Shown: positions 35,675 through 50,336 of the stretch, piece after piece
Numbering within the stretch: position 1 is the stretch's first letter
Layout of the letters: each line of letters begins with the position of its first letter
Assembly (NCBI RefSeq): GCF_002077175.1
Contig: NZ_CP014943.1
Location: forward strand, 4,216,001-4,280,000
DNA from: Colwellia sp. PAMC 21821
Lineage (GTDB): Bacteria > Pseudomonadota > Gammaproteobacteria > Enterobacterales > Alteromonadaceae
Reading direction: 5' to 3'
DNA length: 64,000 bases
Program-made: the position numbers and the translations under genes
Notes under the pieces: model-generated
The model's input: the letters and a program-made list of their open reading frames with translations, nothing else
Databases searched by the model: none
Told to the model about the DNA's origin: nothing

Positions 35675-38266
35675 ATGAAAAAAATAGCAATATTGGTGAC
35701 AGCACTTGCAAGTATGACTTGCCAGGCCGAGAGGTTAGCAGACAACGAAAATCGATTTTATAATCCAGCATTAATTCCTATCAATGAATTACCTATTACC
35801 TTAACGGGAGACAACTCTGCTTTAGACAGTGATTTACTGAATCAACAAATTATGCAACTTTCCGCTGATGGTGGTGGCACTATAAAAATTAGTGACGGTC
35901 AATACTACTTAAAAGACATTCGCTTGAAATCTAATGTGCACTTAGCATTTACATCTAATTCAACGCTATTACCTTTCTTGGACGAAAGTGCGACAGGTAA
36001 AAATATTATTATGTTTCATATGGGTAACCAGCAACATGTAGAAAATGTTGCGGTTACCACTACGGCTGAAGACTCTGAAGATAGTAGTCAATGGTTGAGC
36101 GTGAATATACCTAAAGGCGATTATAACGGTGTTAAAGTTTTTGAGGTGAGTGATGCAAAAAACTTTAAAATATCAGGCATAAAAATTAACGATACTTATT
36201 CTAAATTTTCAGGCGTTGTATTGAATTTACCTGACAGTTTACAGATTGCTGATATACCAACCAATGGCATAGTTAAAAATGTCAGCATAGAGAATGCACA
36301 TGTTGGTTATGGGTTGGTGCAAACGCAAACAGGTAGAACGGTGCTCTTTAAAAACTTAGCAGGTAAGGGCGGTGTAACGCTAAGATTAGAAACAGGTGTT
36401 AGAGAAGTTAACCTAGTAAATATTGGCACGCTTAACGACATTGTAGGTCGTAATATTAAGATTGTTAATGGCGATACTGCCATGGTTACTTCGCCGCATA
36501 GAGTTGATCAAGGTATTATTGATGTTGAAGGTATTACGGCAATTAACTCTACTTATGCCGTGCGTGTTGCAAAAGGTTTTTTAGATAATAAACCGGGTAC
36601 CGTTGACAATTTAGGTAGTTTTGATAGCCGCTCTTATATTGGCGGTATAACCGTTCAAGGTGGAGAGTTAGCGCAAGTTAAAGGTAAAGATTTACCCTTT
36701 TTTGCTTGTGAAGAAAGAAATGAAATTCGTACTAGCTGTCGTTATCCAGATTTTGAATCGTATTCAGGTCGTTCTATTGGTGTAATTAACGATATTGCCA
36801 ATGTAGCCTCTGGTTGTATTGGCGGTGAAGATAATGGTTGTTATGAAATTAATTATGGTCCAATCACGCGGTTAAATGATGCATTTTTACACAGTGAAAA
36901 TTTCACTTTAAATAGCATGAAAATAAGAGGCTGTAGCTTAGCCGACTTACCTGTGCCTGAGGTGTCGTGTCCAATTTTTGATGATCAAGATGGCGATGGA
37001 TTTTCTGATGTTTTGGATAATTGTGTGTCGACCTTTAACCCGATGCAAAAAGATTCAGATAACAACGGTGTTGGCGATCTTTGTCAAGTTGATGCAACAG
37101 ATACTGATGGCGATGGTGTATTAGATGTAGATGACGCTTTCCCAGAAAACCCTGATGAAACACTCGATACGGATAACGATGGTATTGGAAATAATGCAGA
37201 TCCTGATGATGATAATGACGGTCGAAAAGATACGGTAGATGCCTTCCCACTTGACCCGACAGAAAAGTTTGATTCTGATGGTGATGGTATTGGTAATAAA
37301 GCTGACAAAGACGATGATAATGATGGTGTTCTCGATAAGGATGATGCTTTCTATTTAGATGCAACCGAATGGCTTGATACCGATGGTGATGGTATAGGTA
37401 ATAATGCAGATACCGATGATGATAATGACGGTGTTGAAGATGCCTTAGATGCTTTTCCGTTAGATCCGACTCGAAGTGAAATTGCAATTATTGATGCCGA
37501 TGGTGATTTAGTTGCTGATGAATCTGATAATTGTCCTGCTATTGCAAATGCAGATCAACTTGATACTGATTCAGATGGTTTAGGTGATGTTTGTGATCCA
37601 GACGATGACAATGATGGTACTGACGATGCGCTTGATGCCTTTCCGCGTGATGCCTCTGAAACTGTAGATACCGATCTTGATGGCATCGGAAATAATGCTG
37701 ATCCTGATGATGATAACGATGGTCGTAAAGATACCTTAGATGCCTTCCCATTAGACCCTAATGAAAAATTTGATAATGACGGTGATGGTATTGGCAATAA
37801 AGCCGACAAAGACGATGATAATGACGGCGTATTAGATAAGGATGATGCCTTCTATTTAGATGCTTCAGAATGGCTTGATACCGATGGTGATGGTATAGGA
37901 AATAATGCTGATACTGATGATGATAATGACGGTGTATTAGATAAGGATGATACATTCTCTTTAGATGCCTCTGAATGGCTTGATACCGATGGTGATGGCA
38001 TGGGCAATAATGCAGACACCGATGATGATAATGACGGTGTAGAAGATAACATGGACGATTTCCCATTTGATCCTGTTTACGGTGTTTTAGGTGATTTTGA
38101 TGGCGATAACGACGTTGACCGTAAAGATATTTCATATTTTGTGCGCGCCATAGGAAACCCTGCGCTTGTTCGAATCGAGTTTGATTTTAACGGTGATGGC
38201 AGAGTACATCAAAGTGATGTTAGCCGATTACGCAGCTTGTGTACCCGAACTCGTTGTTCTGAATAG
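35675..38266 (+). CDS. GH82-like (iota-carrageenase family) protein with TSP3 repeats and C-terminal dockerin
   Basis: 863 residues. After a signal peptide comes a right-handed beta-helix (about 40-430) that resembles the GH82 iota-carrageenase CgiA of Alteromonas fortis. By eye, Q216, E239, H275 and D304 have exactly the spacing of CgiA Q222, E245, H281 and E310, and GYGLVQT and RLET match GYGLIQT and RMET. The position of the catalytic base D247 is Gly241. Residues about 436-800 are type 3 thrombospondin calcium repeats (D-x-D-x-D-G units). Residues 807-848 are two dockerin loops ([12 protein letters not shown] and [12 protein letters not shown]), ending in a Cys pair (C856, C861). It probably binds or cuts a carrageenan-type galactan at the surface. 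The cohesin-like gene follows 22 bases later. Confidence 0.8.
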
Positions 38267-38287
38267 TCATTAACCAGGGATTTTATT

Positions 38288-38866
38288 ATGAAAAATGTAA
38301 TGTTAACTTTCTGTTTGCTTGTGTGTAGTTTTCATAGCGTTGCTGGGCTTATTGTTAATTCAGACGCTGACAATTATGCCATTGGGGACACCATTAACAT
38401 CAACCTGAGTTTAGAAAAAAATGAACCGATAAGTAATTTGCTCGATAAAAATTTCGATATGGCTACTTACTTTATGTTTTCAGACAACAAGGGCACTTTT
38501 GATTCAGCGTATTTATCTGGTCTATACACTACCGATGTAGATGCTGATCCAATTGTATCATTTGACAGTTTATTTAAGGAATGGACCTATAGCTTAAGCA
38601 CTTATGGCAGCCAAGCTCCTTTTTCACTGACCGATATGGTGCTTGGTTTGGGGACATTAAGTTTTGTTGCTACTGAAATAGGAAGGTTCGATTTTAATGT
38701 TTCTTATTTCTTTATCAGTGATTCACCAGGTTACTTTGACCAGGCTTTTGACATCCAACACTCAGTACAAATTGTTGCGAATGAAGTTCCAGAGCCTGCG
38801 AGTATTGCTTTGTTTGCTTTTGCGTTTGCTGCTTTATATAGGAAACCTAAAAAGCACTCGTTTTAG
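38288..38866 (+). CDS. Small PEP-CTERM protein with a cohesin-like beta-sandwich domain
   Basis: 192 residues: a signal peptide (1-20), a beta-sandwich (21-165) and a PEP-CTERM sorting tail (VPEP at 167-170, hydrophobic segment, then YRKPKK). The sandwich opens with NYAIGDTININLSLEKN and ends LGLGTLSFVATEIGRFDFNVSY, matching the opening (YxVGDTFTVDLxL) and late strands (LATLxFxAxxxG) of cohesin and cohesin-like domains. The middle is too divergent for certainty. It lies 22 bases after a gene ending in a dockerin, so an anchored cohesin holding the GH82-like enzyme on the cell surface is an attractive reading. No EpsH/exosortase gene is in the window. Confidence 0.62.
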   Translation: MKNVMLTFCLLVCSFHSVAGLIVNSDADNYAIGDTININLSLEKNEPISNLLDKNFDMATYFMFSDNKGTFDSAYLSGLYTTDVDADPIVSFDSLFKEWTYSLSTYGSQAPFSLTDMVLGLGTLSFVATEIGRFDFNVSYFFISDSPGYFDQAFDIQHSVQIVANEVPEPASIALFAFAFAALYRKPKKHSF

Positions 38867-38897: not shown

Positions 38898-38934
38898 AAC
38901 CTAGCGCTTTGATAAGCGTTAGGTTTTATTTTTT
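38898..38934 (+). terminator. Terminator after the cohesin-like gene
   Basis: AACCTAGCGCTT / AAGCGTTAGGTT (12 bp, one G-T pair) with loop TGAT and the tail TTATTTTTT. It closes the two-gene dockerin/cohesin-like unit. Confidence 0.85.
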
Positions 38935-39024: not shown

Positions 39025-40593
39025 ATGAAAACTATTGCGATATTGGCAACAGCGTTGGTAAGCATGACGTGCCAAGCGGAACGATTAACAGACAACGAAG
39101 AGCGTTTTTATACCGATCTGATCCCGACCTATGAGTTATCTGTAGAGTTAAGTGGAGACAATTCATTTCTTGATAGTGAGTTACTGAATCAACAAATCAT
39201 TCAACTGTCGGCCGATGGTGGTGGTACTTTACAAATAGGTGACGGTCAATATTACTTAAAAGACATTCGCTTGAAATCTAATGTGCACTTAGCATTTACA
39301 TCCAATTCAACGCTATTACCTTTCTTGGACGAAAGTGCGACTGGTAAAAATATTATTATGTTCCATATGGGTAACCAGCAGCATGTAGAAAATGTAGCTG
39401 TTACCACTACTGCTGAAGACTCTGAAGACTCTGAAGATAGTAGTCAATGGTTGAGCGTTAATATACCCAAAGGCGATTATAACGGTGTTAAAGTTTTTGA
39501 GGTGAGTGATGCAAAAAACTTTAAAATATCAGGCATAAAAATTAACGATACTTATTCTAAATTTTCAGGCGTTGTTTTGAATTTACCTGACAGTTTACAT
39601 ATTGCTGATATACCGACCAATGGCATAGTTAAAAATATCAGCATAGAGAATGCACATGTTGGTTATGGGTTGGTGCAAACGCAAACAGGTAGAACGGTGC
39701 TCTTTAAAAACTTAGCAGGTAAGGGCGGTGTAACGCTAAGATTAGAAACAGGTGTTAGAGAAGTTAACCTTGTAAATATTGGCACGCTTAACGACATTGT
39801 AGGTCGTAACATTAAGATTGTTAATGGCGATACTGCCATGGTTACTTCGCCGCATAGAGTTGATCAAGGCATTATTGATGTTGAAGGTATAACAGCAATT
39901 AACTCTACTTATGCTGTGCGTGTTGCAAAAGGTTTTTTAGATGATAAACCAGGTACCGTTGATAATTTAGGTAGTTTTGATAGTCGCTCTTATATTGGCG
40001 GTATAACCGTTCAAGGTGGAGAGTTAGCGCAAGTTAAAGGTAAAGATTTACCCTTTTTTGCTTGTGAAGAAAGGAATAAAATTCGTACTAGCTGTCGTTA
40101 TCCAGATTTTGAATCGTATTCAGGTCGTTCTATTGGTGTAATTAACGATATTGCCAATGTAGCCTCTGGTTGTATTGGCGGTGAAGATAATGGTTGTTAT
40201 GAAATTAATTATGGTCCAATCACGCGATTAAATGATGCATTTTTACACAGTGAAAATTTCACTTTAAATAGCATGAAAATAAGAGGCTGTAGCTTAGCCG
40301 ACTTACCTGTGCCTGAGGTATCGTGTCCAATTTTTGATGATCAAGATGGCGATGGATTTTCTGATGTTTTAGATAATTGTGTGTCGACCTTTAACCCGAT
40401 GCAAAAAGATTCAGATAACAACGGTGTTGGCGATCTCTGCCAAGTTGATGCAACAGACACTGGCGGCAATATTGAAGTTTTAGCAGGAGAGGTTATTGAA
40501 GTGGTTAAAGAGGATGAATCGTCGGCAGGAACAATGTCAGTATTATTCACAGGATTATTATTGTTATCATTGTTTCGTCGGCTAAACGGCTAA
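39025..40593 (+). CDS. Second GH82-like protein with one TSP3 unit and a CTERM-like membrane tail
   Basis: 522 residues, nearly identical to the protein at 35675 over the beta-helix and first TSP3 unit, with a more divergent first 60 residues. It has the same active-site pattern: E241 of RLETG, the Gly (243) in place of the catalytic base, and H277 in SPHRV. An extra GAAGACTCT copy adds three residues (EDS). After QVDATDT the proteins part: this one ends in SSAGTMSVLFTGLLLLSLF followed by RRLNG, a small-residue, hydrophobic, basic tail like GlyGly-CTERM signals, instead of TSP3 repeats and a dockerin. It is probably anchored directly in the membrane or processed by a rhombosortase-like protease. 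Confidence 0.78.
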   Translation: MKTIAILATALVSMTCQAERLTDNEERFYTDLIPTYELSVELSGDNSFLDSELLNQQIIQLSADGGGTLQIGDGQYYLKDIRLKSNVHLAFTSNSTLLPFLDESATGKNIIMFHMGNQQHVENVAVTTTAEDSEDSEDSSQWLSVNIPKGDYNGVKVFEVSDAKNFKISGIKINDTYSKFSGVVLNLPDSLHIADIPTNGIVKNISIENAHVGYGLVQTQTGRTVLFKNLAGKGGVTLRLETGVREVNLVNIGTLNDIVGRNIKIVNGDTAMVTSPHRVDQGIIDVEGITAINSTYAVRVAKGFLDDKPGTVDNLGSFDSRSYIGGITVQGGELAQVKGKDLPFFACEERNKIRTSCRYPDFESYSGRSIGVINDIANVASGCIGGEDNGCYEINYGPITRLNDAFLHSENFTLNSMKIRGCSLADLPVPEVSCPIFDDQDGDGFSDVLDNCVSTFNPMQKDSDNNGVGDLCQVDATDTGGNIEVLAGEVIEVVKEDESSAGTMSVLFTGLLLLSLFRRLNG

Positions 40594-43471: not shown

Positions 43472-46400
43472 CTACAGATTTTCGATGAGTTTACTTTCTG
43501 TTTTATAAAGTCTTTTATTTATTTGGTTTAAGTGCTCTTGCTCTTTTTTAGATAGTTTTTTTCCTTTATCTAAAACCGTGTTATAACGCTTGTATTTATT
43601 AAGCGATACATTATCTAAATCTATATTTGGAAATAATATATTGATGTTAATGTTTATTTTATAAGACTCTTCATTACTAGTATTTTTGGCTAAAATAGTT
43701 AAAGGGTAACTTCTTTTTGTTTTCAATACTCTGTTCGATATATTACGTAAATAGACTTCTTTAAAGTGAAAAACTATATCTCCCGTTTGCGCATCAATTG
43801 AAAACAGCTTGCTATATACCGACGATATAATGCTATAACTTAACTGCTTGGCATCTGCTGCATCTATATCAGGAATAAAGCCTTTACCAACGTTTTGCTT
43901 CTTTTTACTATATTGGTAAACATAATCAAGAGACTGTTTGAAAGCAGATAAGTTAGTTTTATCTTCGCTGTCTAACTGCTGTAAAAAAGCAAGTAATTCG
44001 TTTTTCTCAACCTTATTAAGCTGATTGAATATATTGTGTGCCTTTGCTGGTTCACCTTTACCTGCTTGAAATACATCATTTAAGGTTTTAGCTGAACCAT
44101 CATGTAAATAGGGGGCGCTTTGCCATAGGCTGATTAAACTAGGCGTATCGAAACCATCTAAACCTTCCCCTAATCGATTACCTGAAGATTGGCTTTTTGT
44201 GCCTATATCATGCCTAACACCACTCATGCTGTCAGTATACGTTGAGCCCACATGACAAGTATTACACTGCAAATTAATAAAGTGTTTTTTCCCTTCTATG
44301 GCTTCTGACGTATAAGTACCATTAGGTTTTTTATAGGGACTTCTTGGGTATTTATCTAACGATGAAACGTATTTTGCAAGATTATCTAGCTCAATATTAA
44401 TGCCGGCTTTACTTGGAAATAAATGCATATTGCTAGGTTTTACCGCATCAAATAAAAAACCGGTACCGCCATTTAGGTTAACTATTTGATCGTTAAAATC
44501 TTGTACTTCATCAAAGTTACCTGTCCAATGTAATAAACCGTGTTTCATACCTGATTTACCCCGTAAATCTATGGTGTTTCTTAACCCTTCACCCAAGTTA
44601 GATAAATCCCAGATGCGTCCATCATGGCTACCATCACTGTGGCAACTAGCGCAGCTCATATAACCTTCGCGGGATAAATGACTTTGTGTTGAATTATGAA
44701 AAATACGCTTACCTTGCAAAATATCGCTAGAAAGCAATTCATGATTAACGGTTTTCCATTGATTTTCAAATTGTAAATGGCCGTTAGCTTTGCTATTAAA
44801 TACTGAAATGGATCGAGACAATTGGTTATGAGCAAATAGCTTAGAACCATCTTTACTTGGTATTAACGAAATGGTGCCTTCACCATAACTATTAAATGTA
44901 GATTGTTTATTAGGTTGATACGCATCAATCGCGGTTATTGTTTGGCTGCCCATGGTGGCAATATAAAGGATATTACCTAGCTTGTTGTAGGTGGCAGCAG
45001 AGGCAAAATCACTGTTATCAAAATCTATTTGGTAGGCTTTAATTTCTTCTTTTTTATCAAGGCTAAATGCTGAAGCAATGCTTCTAACGGTATGATCAAA
45101 GGTTAAGGCATTACCATCACGATTAAGTCCTCTAAATAAATTGTCTTTTTTACCTGGAAGCCAAAATGTATTTTGTTCAGGGTTTACTGCAATAGGCCCT
45201 AAATAATTTAGGTAACCACGGCCATTAGATAAACCGTCAGGGTCCATAATAGGAGACAAGCGTTGTTGATATTCAATACTCCATTTATCCGTGTTTACCC
45301 ATTGAACAAAAGCACCTTGTTGGTTGCTTGCGATAAACTGTGGAGCGATCAATAGGTTATTATGCGGGAGAAATGCTAGGTTTCTTAAAGGGCCTTTTAA
45401 TTTGATATTTCGTGTTAATTTTAATGAGCGACTATCAATTTCTTGAACCTTAGCTGCTCCACTTAACGCAACATAAACACGTTTTTTTATTTTATTAAAG
45501 GTAATGCCGTGAGGCGTGGATGCATAACCTAATGGTAGTGTTTTAAATAATTCACCTGTTTTTTTGTTGTGAATACTTAAGCTGTCGTCATCTTTATTAC
45601 TTACCCATAATTGGTCATCTATTTGTATTAAAGCAACGGGATTCTTTCCTGTTGGTTGCTCATAAATAACTTTTCCAGAATCAGTGCTTATGGCTGTTAG
45701 GGTATTATTATCGGGGTTAACGACATAAAGTTGTGCTATGTGCTCGTCTAGTACCATTGTTGAACTTGAAAGAGGGCGCTCATTTGGAACGGGGTTATAA
45801 ATAACTTGTATCGCTGAATTTTTAATTGTTTTCTTAGTCTTTTTATTTTTAACGATGAGCGTAACGTTATAATTATTGGCTTTATCGAATGTTGTTTTAA
45901 TAGATGCAGAGCCACTAAACTCTGTATTTGGTGTGTTATTACCAAAGTTCCATGCATAGCTGAAATCTGCTGTGCTATTCATGCTTTTGACTGAAGCGGT
46001 AAACGTGACGTTATCACCCACTTTTTTAGGCTCATCAACGATTAATTCACTACTAAATTCATTTAACTGATCACCAGTAGAAAAGTAAGTAACAATTTCT
46101 TCACCTTGGTAAGCGTTGCCAACAGTATCTTTTAAGTTTGAAGTAATGATAACTTCATACGATGTATTAGTTTTTAAAGGTGCCTTAGGAACGATGTGCA
46201 CTATTCCCATGCCATGACTAAAACTACTTGGCACGACTTGCTTTGTGGCTTTTTCAATAAGGTAAGTTGCGCCAAACTCTAGGCTGCCATTATCAATAAA
46301 ATCTGAGAATGAAATACCAATTTTTGAAAGCAAAGATACGTTTTTCTCACCTTTTTTCGGTAAAATATAGTTAACTTTAGGGGCTGTAGTATCAGGGGGT

Positions 46401-47602
46401 ATACTGGCAGCAGCAATGCTTAATTTGCTCCTTACATTATGGTCTGAGGTAATAACGGTTAGGTTGCCTAGCGATGAAATAAAGGCATAATCGTCAGCAG
46501 GTGGGTATTGTGGCTCTGCTCTGGTTTCTAAAGTCGCTTTATCCTGATTAACTGACCATTTTGTTAAACCAGGGTAATGGCCAATATATAAATCATCATC
46601 TTTCACATAAATGTATTCAGGCTTGAATAATTGATCGGTAGTGGCAAGTTCAATTGTTTTAATGTTTTCAACATCAGAAAAATCATAGGTGATGATTTCA
46701 GATGTTTTCGCGGTACCTCTATCACCCGAAAATGCACCATTGTAAAAACGAGAACCATAAAGTATGCCTTGATATCCTACTTTAATAGTATGTCGGTTAA
46801 TCAGGAATGGGTTACTGGGATCACTTATATCAAGCAACACCATATCACCTGTTGTGCTTGCAATTGCCGTAGGTGATAAAATTAATAAGTCGCCTATCGC
46901 ATGAGCAGATCGTAATACTTGATTGTATAATTTATCTTTGGTTAAGTGTTTAAGTAATCTCGGTTTTTCTAAGTTAGTTGTATCTATAATATACAAACCA
47001 GTAGAACCTGTAGGGGCAAAAGCATATTTCCCGCCTACCCAAACAGGTGAAAAACTAAAGCCGTCATAAACGGTAGATTTTTCAACCCCTGGAAAATAAA
47101 AACGAGATATAACTTTAGGTAACGTTTTAGGGTCGTCATCAAATAAAGGCCCTAAATCTAAAATTATAAAGCCGTTGCGGTTTTTACCTCTATCAGTCAA
47201 ATATAAATAATCTTTATGAAAATATAGTGTATGTACTTCTCCTAAATCACCTAAATAATGTTTGTCTGACTCATTGTTGTGGTAAATATTAGGGTAGTCT
47301 CGTGAGTCGAAAACGGTTTTAGGGTTGGTAGGATCATCAACATTGTAAGCCGCTAAAGCGCCTTCACCAATACCACCACCAAAGTCAAAGCTTAACGGGG
47401 TTATTAAAAGCCCTTTATGATAAGCAACAGCACTGATGGCTTTTTCGGGATCGATCCACGAAAGAATATCCCCTGCTTTAGCGTTTAGGATCGGCTTATT
47501 AAAAGGGGCATGTACTTTATAGTCTTCTGCATATGAATTAAGTGATATAACGTTAAATACACTACAGAGTAAAACAGCGAGAAATAGGGGCATATTCTTC
47601 AT
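43472..47602 (-). CDS. Giant exported fusion: beta-propellers, Ig-like, PKD and di-haem cytochrome c
   Basis: 1376 residues with a signal peptide (ending NSYAED). In order: an LVIVD-type beta-propeller (about 30-400), an SbsA-like Ig domain (about 405-510, from DTTAPKVNYILPKKGE), a PKD domain (about 515-605, YAWNFGNNTPNTEFSGS), a YncE-like propeller (about 610-960), and a cytochrome region with haem motifs CASCH (about 983) and CNTCH (about 1112) plus the di-haem-peroxidase signature APYLHDGSAKTLNDVF. The haem part resembles the MauG / cytochrome c peroxidase group. It may oxidise a sugar or pass electrons at the outer surface. Its place between an esterase and a sulfatase in one transcript ties it to glycan use. 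Activity is not assignable. Confidence 0.75.
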   Translation of the reverse strand: MKNMPLFLAVLLCSVFNVISLNSYAEDYKVHAPFNKPILNAKAGDILSWIDPEKAISAVAYHKGLLITPLSFDFGGGIGEGALAAYNVDDPTNPKTVFDSRDYPNIYHNNESDKHYLGDLGEVHTLYFHKDYLYLTDRGKNRNGFIILDLGPLFDDDPKTLPKVISRFYFPGVEKSTVYDGFSFSPVWVGGKYAFAPTGSTGLYIIDTTNLEKPRLLKHLTKDKLYNQVLRSAHAIGDLLILSPTAIASTTGDMVLLDISDPSNPFLINRHTIKVGYQGILYGSRFYNGAFSGDRGTAKTSEIITYDFSDVENIKTIELATTDQLFKPEYIYVKDDDLYIGHYPGLTKWSVNQDKATLETRAEPQYPPADDYAFISSLGNLTVITSDHNVRSKLSIAAASIPPDTTAPKVNYILPKKGEKNVSLLSKIGISFSDFIDNGSLEFGATYLIEKATKQVVPSSFSHGMGIVHIVPKAPLKTNTSYEVIITSNLKDTVGNAYQGEEIVTYFSTGDQLNEFSSELIVDEPKKVGDNVTFTASVKSMNSTADFSYAWNFGNNTPNTEFSGSASIKTTFDKANNYNVTLIVKNKKTKKTIKNSAIQVIYNPVPNERPLSSSTMVLDEHIAQLYVVNPDNNTLTAISTDSGKVIYEQPTGKNPVALIQIDDQLWVSNKDDDSLSIHNKKTGELFKTLPLGYASTPHGITFNKIKKRVYVALSGAAKVQEIDSRSLKLTRNIKLKGPLRNLAFLPHNNLLIAPQFIASNQQGAFVQWVNTDKWSIEYQQRLSPIMDPDGLSNGRGYLNYLGPIAVNPEQNTFWLPGKKDNLFRGLNRDGNALTFDHTVRSIASAFSLDKKEEIKAYQIDFDNSDFASAATYNKLGNILYIATMGSQTITAIDAYQPNKQSTFNSYGEGTISLIPSKDGSKLFAHNQLSRSISVFNSKANGHLQFENQWKTVNHELLSSDILQGKRIFHNSTQSHLSREGYMSCASCHSDGSHDGRIWDLSNLGEGLRNTIDLRGKSGMKHGLLHWTGNFDEVQDFNDQIVNLNGGTGFLFDAVKPSNMHLFPSKAGINIELDNLAKYVSSLDKYPRSPYKKPNGTYTSEAIEGKKHFINLQCNTCHVGSTYTDSMSGVRHDIGTKSQSSGNRLGEGLDGFDTPSLISLWQSAPYLHDGSAKTLNDVFQAGKGEPAKAHNIFNQLNKVEKNELLAFLQQLDSEDKTNLSAFKQSLDYVYQYSKKKQNVGKGFIPDIDAADAKQLSYSIISSVYSKLFSIDAQTGDIVFHFKEVYLRNISNRVLKTKRSYPLTILAKNTSNEESYKINININILFPNIDLDNVSLNKYKRYNTVLDKGKKLSKKEQEHLNQINKRLYKTESKLIENL

Positions 47603-48750: not shown

Positions 48751-50247
48751 TTAGAATTTTATTTTTTTAATATAAGCCATGTGTTCAAGGGCTTTAGCCG
48801 CACTTTGATCGAGTGCTATTTGTGAACTTACTAGCGCTTGTTGAATTTTTGAATAATCAGACGCATCGATAAGCGGGTCATATTCGTTAGGGCGTACACC
48901 CATTCCTTCCAATACAGAATACCAACTATCTGTGGCAAACAAATCATCAGTATCATGAAATAATTGACCTTGCGAACGAAATAAGTCGAGTTTTGTTTCG
49001 AGGGAATCAGGTATTGCTAAGTTTTGCCACATTTGCCAAAAAGGGGAATCAGTACGCTTGGTTTCACTGTAATGCAATACAATGAAGTCGCGAATACATT
49101 CATATTCATGATCCATTTTACGATTAAATTCATCTATCGGTGCTTGATGCAATTTTTTACTGGGTATTGTTTGCACAAAGTTAAGCATGGCTTTCATTAT
49201 CAAGTAAATGCTGGTGGACTCTAATGGCTCTAAAAAACCTGATGACAAGCCAACAGCTAGACAGTTTTTATGCCACATTTTGTGTCGTTTACCCGTTGTA
49301 AATGAAATAATTCTGGGCTCTGTTATAAAATCACCAACATTTTTTGCAAGTAGATCTTGAGCTTGTTGATCACTGCAATATTGGTCGCAATATACATAGC
49401 CATTACCTGTGCGATTTTGTAATGGTATCTGCCATCTCCATCCGTGTTCATGTGCAAATGAAGAGGTAAAAGAGGGCAGAGGGCGCATCACTTTAGATTG
49501 TGCAGCCACTGCTTTATTTACTGGTAAATAATGTTGCCAATTTTCGTAGCCAATTCTTAAGGCTTTGCCTAATAAAAGCGATTGTTGGCCACTGCAGTCG
49601 ATAAAAAAGTCGCCGTCGACTAGCGCTCCATTTTCTAGCGTTAATTGGCTGATATTACCCTGTGTATCTAACACAACATTTTGGACATGGCCCTTGATAT
49701 GCTCAACGCTGTTATTTTGACAGTATTGAGATAAAAACTCAGCCACTAAGGTTGCATCAAAATGTAATGCATACGTGGATGCTGATAAATTAGTGGGATT
49801 TTGTGGATCAGGTATGAAAAATCGGTTTTGTTTGGCTAATGCAATAGCAGGAGAAAAATCAGTAAATTCAGACGTCCCCCCATTTAACTTGTTTTTCAGC
49901 CAATGTTGATAAAAGGGTTTACCCTCTATTTTATTGCCAACATGACCAAATGGATGCCAGTAATGACTGCCTAATTTATGCCAATCACAAAACTTAATAC
50001 CGAGTTTAAATGTTGCATTGGTTTTTAATATAAATTCAGCTAGAGGAATTTTTAAGTATTCGAGCATATCTACTATAGAAGGAATGGTAGCTTCGCCAAC
50101 ACCAATAGTTGGTACATGAGGTGACTCTATTAAACGGATTTTGCAAGGCAGATTCAATAAGGCTCTGGATAAAATAGCCGCTGATATCCAACCAGCGGTT
50201 CCTCCTCCGACAATCACAAAGGTTTTTATTTGCTGTTCGTTAGACAT
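48751..50247 (-). CDS. Second tryptophan-halogenase-like flavoprotein
   Basis: About 498 residues. It has the FAD loop GGGTAGW, a conserved lysine in ATFKLGIKF (near residue 81-83), the halogenase motif W-R-W-Q-I-P and the LEPLESTSIYL segment, so the catalytic features of the family are kept. Two ATGs lie close together; the AGAGG ribosome site abuts the first, so the second (50247) is preferred. It follows the TBDR at 50337 by about 90 bases, just as the other copy sits beside the TBDR at 6050, but SapC and the cupin are absent here. The substrate is unknown. Confidence 0.84.
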   Translation of the reverse strand: MSNEQQIKTFVIVGGGTAGWISAAILSRALLNLPCKIRLIESPHVPTIGVGEATIPSIVDMLEYLKIPLAEFILKTNATFKLGIKFCDWHKLGSHYWHPFGHVGNKIEGKPFYQHWLKNKLNGGTSEFTDFSPAIALAKQNRFFIPDPQNPTNLSASTYALHFDATLVAEFLSQYCQNNSVEHIKGHVQNVVLDTQGNISQLTLENGALVDGDFFIDCSGQQSLLLGKALRIGYENWQHYLPVNKAVAAQSKVMRPLPSFTSSFAHEHGWRWQIPLQNRTGNGYVYCDQYCSDQQAQDLLAKNVGDFITEPRIISFTTGKRHKMWHKNCLAVGLSSGFLEPLESTSIYLIMKAMLNFVQTIPSKKLHQAPIDEFNRKMDHEYECIRDFIVLHYSETKRTDSPFWQMWQNLAIPDSLETKLDLFRSQGQLFHDTDDLFATDSWYSVLEGMGVRPNEYDPLIDASDYSKIQQALVSSQIALDQSAAKALEHMAYIKKIKF

Positions 50248-50336
50248 TACCATCCTCTTATACTTTTCAAAAAAACAAGCTCTATACTAACACCTAGAGC
50301 TTGTTTGATTATTTAACATTATTTCAATTTTAAAAC

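Follow-up and report, generated by a model that had tools for sequence, protein, structure and literature searches.

A dockerin-tagged GH82-like enzyme and a neighboring cohesin-type PEP-CTERM protein in Colwellia: a probable one-to-one, non-cellulosomal anchor

Does a secreted depolymerase that ends in a dockerin, encoded next to a small cohesin-type protein with a sorting tail, form with its neighbor a cellulosome-like scaffold or a simpler device for keeping one enzyme at the cell? The question is raised by two adjacent genes of Colwellia sp. PAMC 21821, encoding a GH82-like (iota-carrageenase-like) protein and a small PEP-CTERM protein, in a stretch of 64,000 nucleotides (the window; contig NZ_CP014943.1, positions 4,216,001 to 4,280,000) of a 4.88-Mb genome assembled as one contig. 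A preliminary description of this stretch, made from its letters alone, had proposed a minimal cellulosome-like module displaying a galactan enzyme. The dockerin/cohesin gene pair that it observed is confirmed here, and its interpretation as an enzyme with an anchor is supported by our sequence analysis. “Cellulosome-like” is too strong a term, since the genome holds one dockerin and one strong cohesin-type gene, and these point to a one-to-one anchor rather than a multienzyme scaffold. With a probability of roughly three in four, we favor the view that the two genes are one operon encoding an exoenzyme and its own anchor, that is, a one-to-one, non-cellulosomal clip in which a secreted depolymerase is held on an exosortase-anchored cohesin. 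The genes lie on the same strand, 21 bases apart rather than the 22 originally given, and are followed by a terminator-like hairpin of 12 pairs with a T-run. The hairpin is as described, but its strength as evidence is less than was claimed, because a scan of hairpins with T-runs found 2 sites against a mean of 2.0 in shuffled sequences and is therefore not significant by itself.

The dockerin is the more readily recognized of the two domains. In a profile search of the genome it matches PF00404 with 26.4 bits (cut-off, 22.9) and is the sole such place at E ≤ 1, and in a linked-fusion model built with AlphaFold 2 (AF2) a helix follows each of its two calcium loops. The score and the two loop-helix units identify it as a probable type I dockerin, for which calcium-dependent cohesin binding is predicted, and both loops and the C-terminal Cys pair are where the preliminary description had read them. 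A whole-protein hmmscan of the GH82-like protein lists only TSP_3 and not the dockerin, so that routine scanning misses it, perhaps because of the acidic array of thrombospondin type 3 (TSP3) repeats. A profile of four such C-terminal ends matches the solved dockerins 5lxv_B (E 4.4e-5) and 6kge_D (E 1.2e-3), interspersed with EF-hand proteins. All 22 aligned dockerins end in two cysteines spaced four residues apart, in the form LCTRxRC in 9 of them, and we know of no named dockerin family defined by a terminal Cys pair.

The small protein carries a signal peptide (assigned by eye) and a C-terminal tail that matches PF07589 with 23.9 bits (cut-off, 20.7), and the genome encodes an exosortase (PF09721, E 2e-45), which together mark it as a PEP-CTERM protein. 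Since that exosortase is encoded and PEP-CTERM tails number 13 in the genome, a PEP-CTERM neighbor by chance is unlikely. The cohesin assignment comes from the family rather than from the protein's own sequence: profiles overturned an impression, left by single-sequence searches, that this is not a cohesin. A wider profile (A5), built from 22 relatives encoded next to dockerins, has 25 matches among solved sequences at E ≤ 0.01 (best E 2.2e-15), which by name are 18 scaffoldin, cohesin or dockerin-binding chains, 4 NagJ, which we take to carry a cohesin, and 3 otherwise named. The window subfamily aligns to this profile at 99.5% probability. PF00963, which finds nothing in the Colwellia genome, is matched at E ≤ 1 by 13 of 31 family members (best 3.2e-6). 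The AF2 model of the small protein is a confident beta-sandwich of ten strands, with block means of the predicted local distance difference test (pLDDT) of 94-98 over residues 21-160; the cohesin fold is a nine-strand jelly-roll. The architecture first proposed (signal peptide, cohesin-type domain, PEP-CTERM tail) thus stands as a prediction from family profiles. In a word-limited search the protein itself is rare (7 protein clusters, one at 98% identity), and a single-sequence search found it in 3 of the order's 394 genomes, among them its own.

A further argument for a functional pair is its linked recurrence. In the first three relatives' neighborhoods, those of Catenovulum maritimum (L006) and of genomes G348 (L007) and G357 (L008), a dockerin protein adjoins a cohesin-type gene, which comes first in L007. 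A dockerin profile finds 42 places in 27 of the 394 genomes of the order, and adding Catenovulum gave a test set of 43 dockerin places in 28 genomes. With a cohesin-domain profile built leaving out each time the genome under test, an adjacent same-strand cohesin-type gene is found at 25 of the 43 places, in 19 of the 28 genomes, compared with 1 of 351 nearby other open reading frames (ORFs), that one being two genes from a dockerin. When 4 of the 25 that were first reached via the cohesin are excluded, the figure is 21/39. The gene pair is thus borne out in other genomes and, as described below, with other enzymes. The reverse test gives a similar picture. Near relatives yielded 10 further cohesin-type genes, 9 of which lie next to an ORF with a dockerin (two genes away in L073); three of the 10 loci (L073, L075 and L077) had been fetched via the dockerin, and among the 7 independent ones, fetched by the cohesin alone, 6 have a dockerin and L098 does not. 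In class and phylum samples, a dockerin (E ≤ 0.01, within the fetched ~3.5 kb) is present at 13 of 24 loci, a partial match (G082:C1:615216) having been left out. Of 94 control pieces one has a dockerin, and that one was already known. In the class sample, at least 23 of 369 genomes match the cohesin profile at E ≤ 1e-8. For the phylum sample the figure is at least 10 of 398; all of these belong to the same class as the window and 8 to the same family. Both counts are lower bounds because at most 8 or 9 candidates were scored per genome. Dockerins at the N terminus also occur beside the same kind of cohesin gene. Exosortase was considered as a marker of dockerin genomes and rejected as too weak: it is present in 35 of 40 genomes, 26/27 with a profile dockerin versus 9/13 others, and two of these 13 (G183 and G263) carry a dockerin beside a cohesin-type gene, which weakens it further. 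Separately, three PEP-CTERM proteins encoded after dockerin proteins (L069 7360-8181, L071 545-1309 and L074 5896-6609) have no match to the cohesin profile; they are perhaps another dockerin-binding fold, or there by chance.

The enzymes attached to the dockerins vary widely. Among 10 partner proteins scanned for families, ExeM/NucH DNases are identified by model at L040, L042, L049 and L056, Endonuclease I at L042 and L047, an M9 collagenase at L065 and a BNR_4 protein at L044, while the L006 and L007 partners match porphyranase domains and that of L008 only CBM6-type domains in Pfam. Four more partners (L041, L043, L045 and L051) are ExeM/NucH-like by their first residues only. The model name ExeM-GG suggests that a GlyGly-CTERM form of these DNases exists elsewhere. 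Between the window and C. maritimum, the dockerins are 82% and the cohesin domains 52% identical, whereas the enzymes, GH82-like and porphyranase-like, are of different families. Dockerin and cohesin distances are correlated over 22 pairs (r 0.61, against a maximum of 0.35 in 5000 permutations); the other 3 of the 25 pairs (L054, L067 and L075), in which the dockerin is internal or N-terminal, were left out. The nearest dockerin and nearest cohesin agree for 12 of the 22. In four genomes with two pairs, the dockerins are 52-53% and the cohesins 29-40% identical between pairs, a separateness that would be expected if each pair is specific, although this is not proof.

A mechanism can be proposed from these elements. 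Both proteins would leave the cytoplasm via their signal peptides, and exosortase would process the PEP-CTERM tail and attach the small protein to the outer surface of the cell or to the exopolysaccharide layer. The C-terminal dockerin of the GH82-like enzyme would then be bound, in a calcium-dependent manner, by the single cohesin domain, with the TSP3 repeats serving as a calcium-stiffened spacer, and the enzyme would be kept non-covalently beside the cell and its sugar transporters. We infer the mutual binding, the site of the complex and its control by calcium. On the site, the best-surviving alternative is that the pair binds but that the anchor retains the enzyme in an exopolysaccharide or biofilm matrix and not on the cell envelope, which is a possibility to be taken seriously although we consider it the less probable one. 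The earliest association of PEP-CTERM proteins was with exopolysaccharide loci, according to the available part of the report (PMC1569441), and DNase and collagenase partners would suit work in a matrix. A galactanase feeding transporters would presumably be better placed on the cell, but the present data do not separate surface from matrix.

Several observations weigh against an enzyme with its own anchor. Searched as a single sequence, the small protein matches PEP-CTERM and no cohesin model; PF00963 has no match in the genome, and a 7-member profile of the window subfamily matches no solved cohesin. At E < 1e-3, 18 of the 43 dockerin places have no adjacent cohesin, including all four of genome G272 as well as L055, L058, L060 and L062; in two of the 18 there is a weak adjacent match (L076, 0.0068; L077, 0.056) and in one a cohesin two genes away. 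One-to-one pairing may not be strict either, because the Colwellia genome holds a second cohesin-profile match outside the window (G000:C1:3608327-3608878), weak (E 8.4e-6) and nearly full-length. Inheritance of the two genes together as an operon would produce the distance correlation as well. Finally, when the complex suggested in the preliminary description was predicted as a linked fusion, both domains folded but their mutual placement was not confident (predicted template modeling score, pTM, 0.57; mean pLDDT 77.6), and the cohesin part was less confident than in the single-protein model. By our estimate this pTM is about that of two folded domains placed arbitrarily, and since confidence in the cohesin also dropped, the model lends the interface no support and weighs mildly against binding. 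In a rival reading the two proteins do not bind at all: the dockerin would merely cap the end of the TSP3 array, stabilized by calcium, and the operon's small protein would be an unrelated adhesin with a PEP-CTERM tail. The divergence of the window cohesin, the fusion model and the abundance of TSP3-type calcium motifs in the enzyme would be compatible with this, but the linked recurrence with unrelated enzymes in both search directions, the correlated divergence of dockerin and cohesin, and the fact that the neighbor family is a cohesin family all speak for binding and make such an end cap unlikely.

Two further alternatives are very improbable. A true cellulosome-like assembly would have several dockerin proteins sharing this cohesin or a hidden scaffoldin. 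Genome G272 has four dockerin proteins without an adjacent cohesin (L048, L050, L052 and L057) and one unlinked cohesin-type PEP-CTERM gene (L098), possibly a case of several enzymes sharing one socket. For the window we reject a cellulosome proper: its genome has one dockerin, no PF00963 match, and one strong and one weak near-full-length cohesin-type match, and each small protein read has room for a single cohesin-type domain. In the other alternative the cohesin protein would serve as a secretion pilot or inhibitor, staying with the enzyme while it is exported and being released afterwards. This would suit the tight operon order and a dockerin at the end of the enzyme presumably exported last, but is hard to credit given a PEP-CTERM tail and exosortase that favor a lasting anchor, and given the N-terminal dockerins mentioned above.

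An exoenzyme with its own anchor would differ from known systems in several respects. As in cellulosomes (type I dockerin; scaffoldin cohesins such as 3l8q, 1qzn and 6kgc), both partners are present and belong to the same domain families. However, the window system has one cohesin domain, no multicohesin scaffoldin seen and one dockerin in the genome; that dockerin continues into a Cys pair, the partners are not cellulases and the nearest named relative is a gammaproteobacterium. In the marine Saccharophagus degradans, two dockerin-like and six distant cohesin-like ORFs are listed in the accessible part of the published account, which leaves binding to future study (PMC2386152); in the window, by contrast, the genes are adjacent and the cohesin protein has a single domain and a PEP-CTERM tail, an arrangement met again elsewhere with other enzymes in place of this one. 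Anaerobic methanotrophic (ANME) archaea and their sulfate reducers likewise use cohesins and dockerins without cellulose but, as far as the available text goes, the role proposed for them is adhesion or contact between cells and not the anchoring of enzymes (PMC5244752, PMC10553843). A further known system is tail-based anchoring of secreted enzymes by PEP-CTERM/exosortase and GlyGly-CTERM/rhombosortase; in the part of that study available, some families alternate between GlyGly-CTERM, LPXTG and PEP-CTERM, and extracellular nucleases are among the GlyGly-CTERM proteins (PMC3237569). Unlike in such direct anchoring, the window enzyme would be held non-covalently because the PEP-CTERM tail sits on the separate cohesin protein.

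Cohesin-dockerin pairs outside cellulosomes are known already, but we did not meet a widespread PEP-CTERM-anchored, one-enzyme form in the literature searched. Non-cellulosomal cohesins and dockerins were reportedly surveyed by Peer et al. in 2009. Among the matches listed, in a search that covered neither this main survey nor most subscription papers, there was no sign of a PEP-CTERM-anchored cohesin and no account of a single-cohesin PEP-CTERM protein paired with a dockerin enzyme, and no paper combined dockerin with PEP-CTERM, with PEP-CTERM and cohesin, or with carrageenase. According to the available text of a 2017 review, it is not known what cohesins and dockerins do outside cellulosomes (PMC5244752). 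The recurrent two-gene cassette gives them a likely job, testable with two small proteins. Beyond the window, the odds seem to us about even that this is a general plug-and-socket display system of Gammaproteobacteria, in which any secreted depolymerase (seaweed galactanase, DNase or collagenase) gains a dockerin and a cognate cohesin-PEP-CTERM gene as one cassette, with self-specific pairs, giving, besides direct anchoring by a GlyGly-CTERM or PEP-CTERM tail, a reversible option that depends on calcium. If the anchor reading of the cassette is right, it would add a non-covalent route to the Gram-negative ways of keeping exoenzymes at the cell, and surface display in Gram-negative hosts could draw on many natural cohesin-dockerin pairs. 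The degradation of carrageenan, agar and DNA by marine bacteria would also gain a spatial component, one that annotation misses because neither domain shows up when the window's proteins are scanned with Pfam.

The catalytic part of the enzyme is a GH82 member by homology. As first proposed, it matches solved iota-carrageenases (E about 3e-27), aligning with CgiA (1h80) over 260 residues. The active-site residues reported as strictly conserved in GH82, namely a glutamine, an arginine, a glutamate and a histidine (PMC3669377, as far as available), are kept as Q216, R237, E239 and H275, together with a GY pair; we take E257 of that paper as the equivalent of the conserved glutamate. The protein differs from CgiA by its TSP3 array and dockerin and by a glycine at residue 241, where CgiA has D247 (chain-to-precursor numbering mapped by us). 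D247 is one of three candidate catalytic residues in the consulted part of a review (PMC4919138), and because a glycine stands in its place, substrate or mechanism may differ; hydrolysis of iota-carrageenan is a prediction.

Table 1. Positions of the gene pair, its domains and the adjoining GH82 copy within the window
Feature	Position	Strand	Residues
GH82-like (iota-carrageenase-like) protein: signal peptide, beta-helix domain, TSP3 repeats, dockerin	35675..38266	+	863 aa
Part aligned to solved iota-carrageenases 1h80/3lmw	35804..36586	+	44-304
TSP3 repeats, acidic calcium-binding linker	36983..38065	+	~437-797
Type I dockerin (predicted)	38084..38263	+	804-863
Dockerin calcium loops	38093-38128 and 38183-38218	+	starting at 807 and 837
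Dockerin C-terminal Cys pair, last two cysteines of the protein	38240-38257	+	C856/C861
Small cohesin-type PEP-CTERM protein	38288..38866	+	192 aa
Cohesin-type domain	38345..38776	+	20-163
PEP-CTERM sorting tail	38786..38863	+	167-192
Terminator-like hairpin 3' of the gene pair	38898..38925	+	
GH82-like paralogue, keeping only the start of the TSP3 array, without dockerin	39025..40593	+	

The paralogue that follows the pair (Table 1) is 93.8% identical to the GH82-like protein over 480 residues and shares its glycine at the D247 position. At the DNA level the copies are 92.5% identical over 1501 bases, in a match that begins 56-59 bases before the start codons and stops within the first TSP3-like repeats. 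The paralogue ends in a short, hydrophobic tail with the residues RRLNG, which looks like a direct sorting tail. The GlyGly-CTERM model TIGR03501 does not match it (up to E 10), although five other places in the genome pass the cut-off and a rhombosortase is present. The window may show both anchoring choices side by side, and two near-identical catalytic parts with different tails would amount to a natural experiment on anchoring.

Families were also scanned for 10 of the 43 listed ORFs of the window. Nearby genes encode sulfatases, a GH2 protein, a sugar transporter, an acetylesterase-like protein and a TonB receptor, a set that would fit the use of a sulfated galactan. Close to these galactan genes, a tryptophan halogenase-like gene (48754-50253) lies beside a TonB receptor, and positions 43475-47602 encode a protein of 1376 residues that combines LVIVD repeats with Big_5, PKD and a di-haem cytochrome c peroxidase-like part.
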